This document shows, one piece after another, positions 30,622-36,898 of a DNA stretch of 64,000 nt. The DNA is from Geothrix limicola (GTDB lineage Bacteria > Acidobacteriota > Holophagae > Holophagales > Holophagaceae). Under the pieces are notes generated by a model that made no database searches, was not told where the DNA came from, and saw only the letters and a list, made by a program, of their open reading frames with translations. A program made the translations under genes and the position numbers. Position 1 is the first letter of the stretch. Each line of letters starts with the position of its first letter. The stretch spans positions 992,001 through 1,056,000 of the forward strand of contig NZ_BSDE01000001.1 in assembly GCF_030268085.1 (NCBI RefSeq), written 5' to 3'.

Positions 30622-31286
30622 TGCGCCAATTCGACCAGGAACTGCGGGACCTGCGGGACGGCCTCCTCTCCATGGCCGGTCTGGCCGAGGAGATGATCGA
30701 CCTCACCATCCAGGCCCTGACCGAACGTTCGCGAACCAAGGCCGAGCAGGTGATGGCCATGGACCGCGGCCTCGACGAGTGGGAGCTGAAGCTCGACCGC
30801 CTCTGCATCGATCTCCTGGCCCTGCGCTCGCCGGCCGCCGGCGACCTGCGCCTCATCGCCTCCAGCCTCAAGATCGTCCCGGAGCTGGAGCGCATCGGCG
30901 ACCACTGCTGCAACATCGCCCGTCGCGCCACCTACGTGCATCCACCCATCCTCTCCAGCGGCTCGCTCGAGCGCCTGGGCCAGGAGACTCGCGGCATGGT
31001 GCGGATGGCCGTGGACGCCTTCATCGGCAGCGACGCGGGACTGGCCCGCACCGTGATCAAGTCCGATGATTCGGTCGATGAACTCTACGGCCAGATCTAT
31101 CGGGAACTGCTCCGCCGGATGATGTCCGACCCGCTCTCCATCGAGCGGGCCAGCCACCTCATCCTCGTCATCAAGAACTGGGAGCGCATCGCCGACCAGG
31201 CCACGAACATCGCCGAGGAAGTCCTCTTCATCCTGGAGGGTCGGAGCGCGAAACACCCCTACCTTCAGGGTGATTCCGTAGAATGA
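30621..31286 (+). CDS. phoU: Phosphate transport system regulator PhoU
   Basis: The 221-residue all-helical protein has two PhoU repeats. In the first, ELERIGDHCCNIARRA and in the second NWERIADQATNIAEEV give the E-R-I-(G/A)-D-x-x-x-N-I metal-binding signature. PhoU connects the Pst transporter to the PhoR kinase and keeps the regulon off when phosphate is plentiful. ATG 30621 shares a base with the pstB stop, and its own stop overlaps an ATG of the next gene. Confidence 0.96.
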   Translation: MRQFDQELRDLRDGLLSMAGLAEEMIDLTIQALTERSRTKAEQVMAMDRGLDEWELKLDRLCIDLLALRSPAAGDLRLIASSLKIVPELERIGDHCCNIARRATYVHPPILSSGSLERLGQETRGMVRMAVDAFIGSDAGLARTVIKSDDSVDELYGQIYRELLRRMMSDPLSIERASHLILVIKNWERIADQATNIAEEVLFILEGRSAKHPYLQGDSVE

Positions 31287-31303
31287 AGCCATCAAAGGAC
31301 CCC

Positions 31304-32008
31304 ATGCCGCGCATCCTCCTCCTCGAAGACGACACCGAAATCCGGCTCGGCCTGGAACAGCACCTGCGGCGGGAGGGCTTCAGCCTCATCCCCGTCGGCA
31401 CGGGGCGCGATGCCCTGCTGGCCCTCAACGCCAGCGGCCCCAAGCTGGATGCCGCCCTGCTGGACCTCAGCCTGCCGGACATGGATGGTCTGGACGTGCT
31501 GCGCGCCATCCGCACCCACGCGACGCTACGCGCCCTGCCCGTGCTGCTGGTGACGGCACGCAGCGAAGAGATCGATCGCGTGCTGGGTCTCGAACTCGGC
31601 GCCGACGACTACATCTCCAAGCCCTTTTCCGCACGGGAACTGGCCGCCCGCCTTCGCGCCATCCTCCGCCGCTCGACGCCCTTCGAAGGCGGCGAACGCA
31701 CGCCCCAGCTGACCTTCGGCCCCATCGCCGTCGACCTCGACATGCACACCGCGCGGGTGGATGGACAACTCGTCGAACTCACCCGCCGCGAATTCGAACT
31801 GCTGGCCTACTTCCTGGCCAACCCGCGCCGCGTGCTCACCCGCGAGAAGATCCTGCAGCAGGTCTGGGGCCTCGAATACCTCGGCGAAAGCCGCACCATC
31901 GACGCCCACGTGCGTCGCGTGCGCGCCAAGATCGGCGAGACGGCCGCCGAATTCATCGAGACAGTAGTGGGTGTCGGATACCGCTTGGGTGGACCTTCCG
32001 GGTCCTGA
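31304..32008 (+). CDS. phoB: Phosphate-regulon-type response regulator (PhoB family)
   Basis: The 234-residue OmpR-class regulator has a receiver with the acid pair ED at 8-9, phosphoacceptor D54 (LLDLSLPDMDG) and the late lysine in YISKPFS. The C-terminal winged helix ends in the recognition part TIDAHVRRVRAKIG and VGVGYRL. I prefer ATG 31304 because AAAGGA stands about 5 nt upstream and PRILLLEDD is the family start. ATG 31283, which overlaps the phoU stop, would add seven residues. It is the last gene of the pst operon; its likely kinase phoR faces it on the other strand. Confidence 0.93.
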   Translation: MPRILLLEDDTEIRLGLEQHLRREGFSLIPVGTGRDALLALNASGPKLDAALLDLSLPDMDGLDVLRAIRTHATLRALPVLLVTARSEEIDRVLGLELGADDYISKPFSARELAARLRAILRRSTPFEGGERTPQLTFGPIAVDLDMHTARVDGQLVELTRREFELLAYFLANPRRVLTREKILQQVWGLEYLGESRTIDAHVRRVRAKIGETAAEFIETVVGVGYRLGGPSGS

Positions 32009-32140
32009 ACAAGGCCAAATGAAACGCCATAAGCGGAGGAAAACGGAGGTGCTGAGGAGAGCGGAGAACTAAAGCAGGCATCTTGCTTTTCTCAGCTACC
32101 CTCCGCTTCTCCGCTCACCTCCGCTTCATTTATTCCTTGT
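32009..32140. repeat. 132-bp imperfect palindrome between the 3' ends of phoB and phoR
   Basis: The element starts with ACAAGG directly after the phoB stop and ends with CCTTGT, the reverse complement. Inner matched parts include AAATGAA with TTCATTT, several GCGGAG/ACGGAGG units on the left facing CTCCGC/CCTCCGC on the right, and a central hairpin AAAGCA/TGCTTT around a 7-nt loop (32071-32089). The left arm is a few bases longer than the right. It could act as a two-way terminator for the convergent genes. Its size, mirrored ends and lower GC suggest a member of a dispersed palindromic family (REP- or MITE-like). I cannot test copy number. Confidence 0.75.
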
Positions 32141-32166
32141 AAAGGCAGCGACAGCCCACAGCCAGA

Positions 32167-33525
32167 TCATTGACGTGGCGAATCCTGGGACTCCCCCTGG
32201 GGCGGCAGGATCACGCGGAAGGTGGCGCCTTCGCCAGGAACGCTCGACACCGAAACCTCGCCGCCCATCAGGCGGCACAGGTGCTTCACGATGGCCAGGC
32301 CCAGGCCCGTGCCCGGTTTGGCCATGGAGGCCTTGGCCCGGTAGAAGCGTTCGAAGATGCGCCCTTGCTCGGCTTCGGGAATGCCTGGCCCCTGGTCCCG
32401 CACTTCCCAGATCTGCCCCTGGCTGCTGAGCTGGACCGACAGATCGACGCGGCTGTCGGCAGGGCTGAACTTGAGGGCGTTGGACACCAGGTTCTCGAGC
32501 ACCTGATGAAGCCGGAGCGGGTCGGCCAGGATTGACGCGCCTTCAGGCGCCCGCACGTCCAGCGCCAGATCCACGCCCGCGGCCTCCGCACGGGGCTGGA
32601 GATCCTTCACGAGGGATTCAACAAACGCGCGCAGATCCAGGCGGACCGGGGCCAGGTGCAGGGCGCCGCTTTCGATGCGGCTCAGCTCGGACAGGTCGCC
32701 AAGGAGCAGGGTGAGCCGGTCCACGGAGCGCATGATCGACCGCGCACTGGCGCGCGAGGCCTCGTCCAGGTTCTCCTCCTGCAGGTTCTCCGCGGCGATG
32801 CGGATGGCCGTGACCGGCGTCTTCAGCTCATGGCTCACATTGGAGATGAATTTCTGCCGGGTGGTCTCCAGGGCCTCCTGGCTCGTGACGTCGTCCAGCG
32901 TGAGCAGCACCCCGCTCACCGATCCCAGGGGCGCGAAGGGGATGGCTCGCACGCGCAGGGTCCGGCCCGCCCGCGCGAGGCGCCACTCGCAGGGCGTGCC
33001 GCCGAAGGCCTTCTGGACGGCCTCCGGGCCCTCCTGATCGCGGAACACCTCGGCCACCACCATGCCTTTGCCCAAAGGCGCCCCCAGGCCCAGATGGCGC
33101 TGGGCCGCCGGATTGAACTGCTCCAGCCTTCCGCTGGCGTCGAAGAGCAGCACGCCTTCTTCCAGCCGCGCCATGATGCCGGGCAGCAGGCGGTCCTCCC
33201 GGACGGCCTTGTCCTTCAGGTCGGCATTTTCCCTTTGCAACGCCGACCAGGCGCGGGGAAGGTCCTGGATCACCACGGCCCCCTGGCTGCTGGACAGAGC
33301 GCCCCGGGGCTCCGCCAGGGCCCGCACCTGCCACCGGGCCATGAGCACGAGCACGAAGGCGAGGGTGCCGAGCAGGCCCGCCACCCACCACAGCGATACC
33401 CCCTGATGCACGCTCATGCCCAGGCCGAAACCGAGGAAGAGCATCGAAACCAGACAGATCAGCGCACGACCCAGAAAGACGGGCATTCCCGATCCGTCGT
33501 CACGCTGGGGTTCTGTCTGGTCCAT
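32167..33525 (-). CDS. phoR: Phosphate-regulon-type sensor histidine kinase (PhoR family)
   Basis: The 452-residue protein has two membrane helices near the N-terminus (about 14-35 and 38-58) with almost no periplasmic part, as in PhoR. A PAS domain (about 115-215) follows, then HisKA with H232 in SHELKTPVTA and a HATPase domain (NLVSNALKF, DQGPGIPE, GTGLGLAIV). PhoR kinases sense Pst/PhoU state rather than an external ligand. I start it at ATG 33525 (MDQTEPQRDD); the longer frame to 33639 would invade the divergent promoter. It is convergent with phoB and divergent from DUF47-pit, rather than following phoB as is usual. Confidence 0.88.
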   Translation of the reverse strand: MDQTEPQRDDGSGMPVFLGRALICLVSMLFLGFGLGMSVHQGVSLWWVAGLLGTLAFVLVLMARWQVRALAEPRGALSSSQGAVVIQDLPRAWSALQRENADLKDKAVREDRLLPGIMARLEEGVLLFDASGRLEQFNPAAQRHLGLGAPLGKGMVVAEVFRDQEGPEAVQKAFGGTPCEWRLARAGRTLRVRAIPFAPLGSVSGVLLTLDDVTSQEALETTRQKFISNVSHELKTPVTAIRIAAENLQEENLDEASRASARSIMRSVDRLTLLLGDLSELSRIESGALHLAPVRLDLRAFVESLVKDLQPRAEAAGVDLALDVRAPEGASILADPLRLHQVLENLVSNALKFSPADSRVDLSVQLSSQGQIWEVRDQGPGIPEAEQGRIFERFYRAKASMAKPGTGLGLAIVKHLCRLMGGEVSVSSVPGEGATFRVILPPQGESQDSPRQ

Positions 33526-33576
33526 GCACACCGACCATACACCGTCCGATGGCCATCTCCCAGCTTCGGCCGACGA

Positions 33577-33594
33577 ATTTACGCTCCAGTTACG
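33577..33594 (+). promoter_or_regulatory. Pho-box-like repeat between phoR and the DUF47-pit genes
   Basis: Two 7-mers, ATTTACG (33577-33583) and AGTTACG (33588-33594), are separated by exactly 4 bp, the 7+4+7 layout of a PhoB site. AGTTAC also occurs in the pstS repeats. The site lies 44-62 bp before the DUF47 start and about 50-70 bp before the phoR start on the opposite strand, so it could control either. The repeats depart from TGTCA, so this is a tentative call. Confidence 0.5.
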
Positions 33595-33638
33595 GCCCTC
33601 GACCCGGTACAGTAAAGGGTTGATCGTGGGAGACCGCA

Positions 33639-34286
33639 ATGTCCTTGAATGCCTTGATGCGCTGGCTGAAACCTCGGGAGATGGTCTTCTTCGACCTGCT
33701 GGAATCCGCGGCTGGAAACGCCTACCAGGCCGCCCAGCTCTTCGATCTCGAAATCCGCACGGGCGATCCCGTCCGCTTCGCCGAGCTGCGCCGGCAGATG
33801 AAGGATCTCGAGCACATCGGCGACGACATCACCCGCGAGATCATGGATCGCCTCAACCAGACCTTCGTCACGCCCATCGAGCGCGAAGACATCATGGCCC
33901 TGGCCCATGCCCTCGATGACGTGGTGGACAAGATCCACGCCGTCTGCGAGCGCCTGATCCTCTACCGGATCGGCCACGTGATGCCCGCCGTCACCGAGAT
34001 CAGCTCGATCATCGTCGAAGGCTCCGGGGAGATCCTCCACCTCATCCGGTCGCTGCGGAACATGTCCAACCAGAAGGAAATCCGCGACCGCATCCGGCGC
34101 GTGCACACCCTCGAGAACAAGGCCGATTCCATCTACCACGCGGCCCTGGCCCAGGTCTTCGAAGATCCGAAGGATCCCATCGAGCTCATCAAGTGGAAGG
34201 AACTCCTCGAGCAGATCGAGGACGCGACGGACAAGATCGAGCTCGTCGCCAAGGTCGTGGGTTCGACCGTCATGCGCAACGCCTGA
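33639..34286 (+). CDS. DUF47/PhoU-like accessory protein of the Pit transporter
   Basis: The 215-residue all-helical protein belongs to the DUF47 family, distant relatives of PhoU. It contains LEHIGDDITREIMDRLNQTF, IEREDIMALAHALDDVVDKI and a late DATDKIELVAKVV, the family's D-D-x-x-D metal-binding signature. DUF47 genes are regularly next to pit and are thought to control Pit activity; the OrfA-Pit pair of Sinorhizobium has this layout. It lies 8 bp before pit. A Pho-box-like repeat lies upstream. Confidence 0.9.
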   Translation: MSLNALMRWLKPREMVFFDLLESAAGNAYQAAQLFDLEIRTGDPVRFAELRRQMKDLEHIGDDITREIMDRLNQTFVTPIEREDIMALAHALDDVVDKIHAVCERLILYRIGHVMPAVTEISSIIVEGSGEILHLIRSLRNMSNQKEIRDRIRRVHTLENKADSIYHAALAQVFEDPKDPIELIKWKELLEQIEDATDKIELVAKVVGSTVMRNA

Positions 34287-36111: not shown

Positions 36112-36138
36112 GCATGGGCACGGCTCCCGTGCCCATGC
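36112..36138. repeat. Hairpin 2: perfect 12-bp stem with 3-nt loop
   Basis: GCATGGGCACGG (36112-36123) pairs exactly with CCGTGCCCATGC (36127-36138). It starts 10 bp after hairpin 1. Stem sequence overlaps in theme with the neighbours (GGGCAC core), as if the hairpins arose from a shared unit. Confidence 0.8.
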
Positions 36139-36144
36139 GCCAGA

Positions 36145-36166
36145 GGGGGCCATGCCCCCATGGGGG
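36145..36166. repeat. Hairpin 3: two mutually exclusive pairings
   Basis: GGGGGC (36145-36150) can pair with GCCCCC (36154-36159). That same C run can instead pair with the following GGGGG in the palindrome CCCCCATGGGGG (36155-36166). The last G's are also needed for hairpin 4, so the region could switch between structures. Confidence 0.65.
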
Positions 36167-36217
36167 TGCACCGGCTGTCCATTTTGCTCATGGTTCCCCT
36201 GCCCAGCCGGTGCACCC
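36164..36217 (+). promoter_or_regulatory. Hairpin 4: 14-bp stem ending on the acyltransferase start codon
   Basis: GGGTGCACCGGCTG (36164-36177) is the exact reverse complement of CAGCCGGTGCACCC (36204-36217), with a 26-nt loop. The next three bases are the proposed ATG start codon. No Shine-Dalgarno sequence is seen in front of that ATG. If formed in the mRNA this stem would cover the ribosome landing site, so the gene is probably translated only when the stem opens or when translation begins elsewhere. Confidence 0.65.
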
Positions 36218-36898
36218 ATGAGCTGGGCCGGCGTCCTCTGGCCCACCTTCGCCCTCCTGCCACGCCTGGCCGCCGGAGCGGAGCCGCAACCCGGATTGCA
36301 CCGGTGGGCGCGGCGCCTGCTTCCCTCGCTGGGCGTGGACGTGGCTGTTCAGGGGCGCCCGCGCACCGACCTCCCGCTCTGGGTGGCGAACCACCTGAGT
36401 TGGGTGGATCCCCTCGTGCTGATGAGCCTCCGCCCCATGGGCACCATCGCCAAGGGCGAAGTCGCCGGCTATCCCCTCATCGGGCGCTGGGCCCAGAAAT
36501 CCGGCATCCACTTCGTGGACCGGGAGGATGCCCTCAGCCGCGCGGCGGCCCTGGTGGGTTTGCGGGTCTCCCTGAAGCAGGGCCGCGACATGCTGCTGTT
36601 CCCCGAAGGCACCACCACGCGCGGCGAGCGCCTGGCGGATTTCTACGAGGGCGGCCTCCGGCTCGCCTTCGAGCTGGGTCTCCCGGCCCAGCCGCTCCGT
36701 GTCGCCAGCCCCGCGCCCCACTATCCCTGGACCGGCGACGAGACCCTGCTGCCCCACATCCAGACCCTCCTCGCCACGCGGACCATGGTCTCAGTGACCG
36801 CCGAAGAACCGCTGCACCCTTCGGATTTCCGTGATGCCGAAGGCTGGCTCGCCGCCTTCAGGGTGGCCCTTTCCCCCCGGAGTTCTGATGTCCGCTGA
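36218..36898 (+). CDS. 1-acyl-glycerol-3-phosphate acyltransferase-like protein (PlsC family)
   Basis: The 226-residue protein has the acyltransferase motifs NHLSWVDPL (HX4D) and FPEGTTTRG, with GEVAGYPLIGRWAQ and HFVDRED between them. It would acylate lysophosphatidate or a related lysolipid at the membrane. The ATG at 36218 gives a protein of normal length, but it lies against a 14-bp hairpin and lacks a ribosome site; ATG 36152 in the same frame would add 22 atypical residues. The end overlaps the ureohydrolase gene by 11 bp. A second PlsC-like gene is at about 46 kb. Confidence 0.87.
   Translation: MSWAGVLWPTFALLPRLAAGAEPQPGLHRWARRLLPSLGVDVAVQGRPRTDLPLWVANHLSWVDPLVLMSLRPMGTIAKGEVAGYPLIGRWAQKSGIHFVDREDALSRAAALVGLRVSLKQGRDMLLFPEGTTTRGERLADFYEGGLRLAFELGLPAQPLRVASPAPHYPWTGDETLLPHIQTLLATRTMVSVTAEEPLHPSDFRDAEGWLAAFRVALSPRSSDVR

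Follow-up and report, generated by a model that had tools for sequence, protein, structure and literature searches.

Between the facing stop codons of a phoB-like response regulator gene and a phoR-like sensor kinase gene in Geothrix limicola lies a 132-bp palindrome, which raises the question of whether it is a terminator private to this junction or one copy of a mobile repeat, and what such a repeat would do at the ends of two genes. The window analysed here is a 64,000-nucleotide stretch of one contig, and the features discussed are collected in Table 1. The two gene names are based on best NCBIfam matches that fall below the equivalog cut-offs, together with a clear PhoU neighbour (TIGR02135, above cut-off).

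The element starts with ACAAGG directly 3′ of the phoB-like TGA (32006–32008) and ends with CCTTGT, 26 bp short of the facing phoR-like stop. Its arms (38 nt each, 76% complementary) carry GCGGAG-type units on the left and CTCCGC units on the right, around a loop of 20 nt with an inner pair of AAAGCA (32071–32076) and TGCTTT (32084–32089). Ends, units and central hairpin were thus found as the original prediction had them, and so was the AT-richness relative to the surroundings (G+C 51.5% in the element, 67.2% in the window); the palindrome itself stood, the word “mirrored” did not, the repeat being an imperfect inverted complement and not a mirror repeat. The predicted RNA fold reaches −62.1 kcal/mol compared with −36.6 ± 3.7 in dinucleotide shuffles (z −6.8), the DNA fold has a z of −5.7, and no shuffle was as good in either case. 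An ungapped hairpin scan gave two matches scoring at least 18 in the window, the element among them, and none in four locally shuffled windows. At the element, a scan for the standard terminator pattern gave no match, and an Rfam scan returned no family, only chance-level models far below their gathering scores. A second strong imperfect palindrome, with 42-nt arms around a 26-nt loop and without unit periodicity, was seen at 36136–36245 of the window, close to the start of another gene.

Table 1. Features of the phoB/phoR junction, in window coordinates.
Feature	Position	Strand	Remarks
phoB-like response regulator gene	31283..32008	+	ORF; PhoB TIGR02154 is the best NCBIfam match (E 1e-58), below equivalog cut-off
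Palindromic element as first described (ACAAGG ... CCTTGT)	32009..32140		Copy of the GCnGAG hairpin family
Stretch in end-to-end alignment with the family covariance model	32016..32141		94.5 bits on +, 90.3 bits on −
Left end ACAAGG	32009..32014		Family consensus A-rich AAAGGAATT
Left arm, four ~9-nt units: AAGCGGAGG, AAACGGAGG, GCTGAGGA, AGCGGAGAA	32031..32068	+	
Loop with small inner AAAGCA/TGCTTT hairpin	32069..32088		
Right arm, four CTCCGC-type units	32089..32126	+	Inverse complement of left arm
Right end CCTTGT	32135..32140		Family consensus AATTCCTTT
phoR-like sensor kinase gene, convergent with phoB	32167..33639	−	PnpS and PhoR models best, below cut-offs

The element is a copy of a previously uncatalogued dispersed hairpin family in Geothrix-group bacteria. 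BLAST within the window's genome (4.23 Mb, 20 contigs) gave two dozen matches, in several cases with a single copy matched on each strand. A covariance model trained on 28 copies from the genus found 17 strong full-length copies, each scoring at least 75 bits on both strands; they occupy 17 places, of which two are adjacent, and are followed by a tail of weaker matches, some of which are other hairpin families. Within the genus the distribution is patchy, from no matches to several tens per genome with both strands of one copy counted twice. The family was also matched in other genera of Holophagaceae, where the named records are Geothrix, and was absent from 16 genomes of two other families in the class; an exact pattern of one full arm, searched over 84,980 species, matched 17 stretches, all of them Holophagaceae or Geothrix. 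Rfam has no family for it, and literature searches with the unit sequences gave no relevant paper within the library searched. No recent burst or mobility is visible in the window's genome, because its most similar non-adjacent copies are 81% identical; in genome G020, three copies are 85–88% identical.

The family consensus reads AAAGGAATT-nnAT-AAGCGGAGG-AnAGCGGAG-nnGCTGAGG-AAAGCGGAG-AAA up to the loop and TTT-CTCCGCTTT-CCTCAGCCC-CTCCGCTCT-CCTCCGCTT-nnnn-AATTCCTTT after it. Each arm holds four units of ~9 nt in which the GC and GAG letters are nearly invariant and the third letter and linkers vary, the stem is ~36–39 bp long in a whole element of ~120–130 bp, and the loop is different in length and sequence in nearly every copy. 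The ends AAAGGAATT...AATTCCTTT form terminal inverted repeats (68% of cells paired), and the end pattern matched 11 times in the window's genome against none for a reversed control; in the window copy, the left end lies ~8 bp farther from the arm than is the family norm. Outside the arms the base composition is skewed symmetrically, which is what a terminator acting in both directions would require: A makes up 45% of the 15 nt flanking the left arm, and T 46% of the 15 nt that follow the right arm (16–17% in the window). The T-run is interrupted (TTCCTTT) and lies at least 4 bp away from the GC-rich stem.

Copies of the family gather at the 3′ ends of genes. Among 101 distinct copies from several genomes, which are not fully independent since copies at orthologous junctions are related, 56 were in convergent, 36 in tandem and 9 in divergent junctions, and none was inside a gene. 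Convergent junctions made up 27 of 230 comparison junctions in the same long stretches (12%), an excess for the copies at p ~ 4e-26, and divergent junctions were avoided (p 0.002). The strong copies of the window's genome taken by themselves were convergent in 12 of 17 cases (p 2e-8). The nearest stop codon is typically 5–30 bp from the copy, and between tandem genes the copy mostly lies close against the stop of the upstream gene. Genes around the copies were called from codon usage by a simple gene finder; around the window element, it recovered the genes expected there.

Empty sites, which the original prediction proposed to look for, are present at this very junction. Out of 29 relatives in which phoB was examined, nine have a 31-bp overlap of phoB and phoR and ten have 24–70 bp between them without a hairpin of this kind. 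In the overlap relatives, PhoR ends in PAGPPS(or I)R, encoded antisense to the last codons of phoB; in the window's genome it ends in QDSPRQ, with SPRQ in place of the PAGPPSR tail. Judging by its spread over species, the overlap is probably the older state, and the incoming element, together with some 45 bp, appears to have cut and replaced the PhoR tail and left phoB intact. TCCTGA at the end of phoB and TCCTGG on the phoR side are a possible target duplicate of 5–6 bp; the ttcA and miaB junctions have no clear target duplicate.

Some junctions are filled otherwise. Between phoB and phoR, a different palindrome is present in G020 (CACAGATTC units, fold z −7.5) and in G004 (CGCAGAG units, z −11.7), and in G047, in which no phoR was found adjacent to phoB, CACCGATG units follow the phoB gene (z −3.4). 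The phoB–phoR hairpin of G022 was not counted as an alternative, its fold being no better than shuffles (z −0.9). In many species the genes of the miaB/epimerase and ttcA/methyltransferase pairs either abut or have a 4-bp overlap; these junctions hold the GCnGAG family in some species and CACGAAG- or CGCAGAG-type hairpins in others.

Several further arrangements were seen at these two junctions. Arrays of 7-nt units (e.g. TATCAGCTGTCAGC) occur at the convergent miaB junction of several species (loci L229, L235, L236, L237 and L240) and seem to reach into the end of the epimerase gene; 9-nt hairpins of the GGACAGGATTAACAGGATT type lie near miaB in other Geothrix-group genomes (L251:1368–1460, L235:1242–1314, L239:1214–1315). 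At the ttcA–methyltransferase junction of G012, the left arm is duplicated on both sides of a small resident gene (L079:7790–8470). The idea that two copies 0.5 kb apart (L079, 7826 and 8344) form a cassette around this gene was dropped, because a similar gene occurs at that junction in other species without elements.

To follow the element after insertion, copies that different species have at one junction were paired by both flanks; these are called orthologous here. In the five groups with alignable loops, hence of true descent, changes were seen in 4 of 245 core unit letters, 22 of 143 other stem letters and 12 of 81 loop letters (Fisher tests of core letters against other stem letters and loops, p 3e-7 and 2e-5). 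The contrast is somewhat circular, because the family alignment itself served to define the core set, and gene conversion among copies could also mimic such conservation. In the remaining orthologous groups, some copies may be separate arrivals, because their loops no longer align. Compensatory changes between orthologues were at chance level (104 pairs changed on both sides, 101.8 expected), and 499 of 500 shuffles had at least as many pairs changed on both sides as the family alignment. This low count is partly due to one conserved mismatch read in two orientations: the seeming anti-pairing at model columns 38/98 (T:C or G:A, not T:A) is a single inherited mismatch, which appears both ways because the copies have no fixed orientation. 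The lack of compensatory changes points to selection on the unit letters and not on pairing alone.

We read the element as a copy of a REP-like, dispersed, bidirectional 3′-end hairpin family, and give about an even chance to its stopping transcription from both sides and forming the ends of the transcripts. A family copy would have entered the 3′ junction of phoB and phoR, where many relatives have the overlap. With four ~9-nt GCnGAG units per arm, RNA of either strand would form a long hairpin with a T-rich end behind it (AATTCCTTT), so the element could terminate transcripts from each of the two facing genes and shield their 3′ ends, and converging RNA polymerases would be kept out of the opposite gene. 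Such a role plausibly fits the placement and the A-rich and T-rich ends. Against it, a pure terminator hairpin should tolerate letter swaps, yet the unit letters are conserved without compensation, the interrupted T-run is set off from the stem, and relatives do without any element at phoB/phoR. The first two of these are the main weaknesses; given them, the units might instead be read by a protein, or the repeat might be purely selfish and survive only where it is harmless.

A wider reading takes in the other hairpins. Stretches totalling ~0.8 Mb, a sample and not a genome-wide census, hold a range of such hairpins with 7–10-nt units. One of these, the CACAGATGAACACAGAT type, has 55 exact arm matches in a single 7.5-Mb genome of another Acidobacteriota family (G262, L290), some of them as facing pairs 39 bp apart. 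Possibly, though we propose it only tentatively, the GCnGAG family belongs with many others that are unrelated in sequence and share one design (two facing arrays of 7–10-nt units, an A-rich start and a T-rich end), colonise the same 3′ junctions independently and replace one another. They would then be an interchangeable, mobile, two-way gene-end punctuation, spread by an agent other than RAYTs.

The sampled stretches also contained the following hairpins. Genome G000 has a second family, likewise at the 3′ ends of genes, which is built of CACGGAGG units and has ends of the type AAAGATCCACCACGG...CCGTGGTGAATCCTT (L078:5163–5269, L183:3186–3349, L185:3249–3353), and further hairpins with 9–10-nt units (ACCGCAGAGAACGCGGAG; ACCGGTGATGAACCGTGATGG; CGCGAATGG) at L184:3305–3376, L076:3295–3371, L018:241–354 and L077:10124–10206. 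Repeated GGAGCCGGGGGCGCCGTGGCC...GGCGCCCCCGGCTCC hairpins, another repeat family, were seen in L089 and L222 (G042 and G008), with several per locus in L089.

It is rather doubtful, if still a serious competitor, that the element is a selfish, non-autonomous, MITE-like hairpin repeat with no host function, which inserts anywhere and survives only between the stops of facing or tandem genes. Dispersed copies, empty sites, a patchy distribution within the genus, the lack of copies inside genes and their scarcity in divergent (promoter) junctions all agree with this, as does the gathering of several unrelated families at the same junctions. A repeat without function would not be expected to keep its unit letters in orthologous copies while the loops drift, with the same proviso on gene conversion, and the window's genome has neither recent near-identical dispersed copies nor a parent element with these ends: searched there with up to 2 mismatches, the end pattern gave matches in known ~125-bp copies only, all 11 of them.

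Conservation of the 9-nt unit letters on both arms without covariation, together with the convergent placement, would also suit a tandem array of protein-binding sites, bound by gyrase, HU/IHF or some other nucleoid protein, at which positive supercoiling between converging polymerases is dealt with; the palindrome would then consist of two such arrays facing each other. Such arrays have a published parallel in Geobacter metallireducens, where TCTCCGTS[Y] repeats, arranged as facing arrays of three in tandem, are predicted, along with comparable classes, to be sites for global regulators (PMC2700814). We consider this unlikely: families with quite different unit letters occupy the same junctions, so one protein reading GCnGAG cannot be their shared function.

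REPs or REPINs proper, spread by a RAYT (Y1) transposase, are likewise palindromic, extragenic and placed between convergent genes within ~20 bp of both 3′ ends (Di Nocera et al., PMC3733652). They are made of 20–40 bp units with a stem of 5–13 bp and a GTAG or CGTC tetranucleotide at one end (PMC3733652), whereas the stem here is ~36 bp and the tag is absent, the aligned ends in 28 copies being AAAGGAATT and AATTCCTTT. Y1_Tnp (PF01797), searched for in 41 genomes, was matched in only 3 of the 25 that belong to the genus, and the window's genome has only a partial match, in a 77-aa frame. A RAYT was rejected as the driver, since Y1 is lacking from most copy-bearing genomes of the genus, including many-copy ones, and we regard this origin as very improbable. 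Of the original REP- or MITE-like reading, the dispersed, multicopy palindrome stands and a REP-like nature is plausible, as is the two-way terminator that the prediction also named; the link to RAYT or IS200-like transposases is not supported. A single-copy local terminator, for which the exact position between convergent stops would speak, has next to no chance, since the genome holds at least 17 full copies, the genus more, and most relatives lack the GCnGAG element at phoB/phoR, the reverse of one copy kept alike in all relatives, which the original prediction had named as the refuting outcome.

If the wider class is real, bacterial lineages outside the well-studied REP hosts have tandem-unit hairpins of their own that would turn overlapping convergent genes into insulated ones. 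The tails of overlapping convergent genes can also be rewritten when an element arrives, as probably happened to PhoR. The phoB/phoR, miaB/epimerase and ttcA/methyltransferase junctions are natural pairs with and without the element among relatives, which makes the old question of parasites, terminators or supercoil handlers directly testable.

Among known systems, MITEs are similarly short, non-coding and dispersed, with inverted ends and empty sites, but the present family has a strong 3′-end bias, and no parent transposon with the same ends was found in the window's genome. REPs, BIMEs and REPINs (PMC3733652; PMC2817692; PMC3116915) are dispersed extragenic palindromes downstream of genes, mostly convergent or tandem and often <20 bp from both 3′ ends; the family described here differs in its ~3× longer stem of 9-nt direct repeats, its 17 copies and the absence of the GTAG/CGTC tag and of a RAYT. 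Bidirectional intrinsic terminators likewise have a long, stable hairpin lying between convergent stops, with an A-rich stretch ahead of it and a T-rich one behind it on each strand, whereas here the T-run is interrupted and off the GC stem, the letters are conserved beyond pairing and the hairpin belongs to a dispersed family. The closest published architecture that we found is class 2 of G. metallireducens, which comes from another phylum and has three units against four here, but shares short tandem units, facing pairs on opposite strands, variable spacing and multiple copies, with a unit, TCTCCGTS[Y], that by description is close, not identical, to the CTCCGCTYT unit of the Geothrix family.
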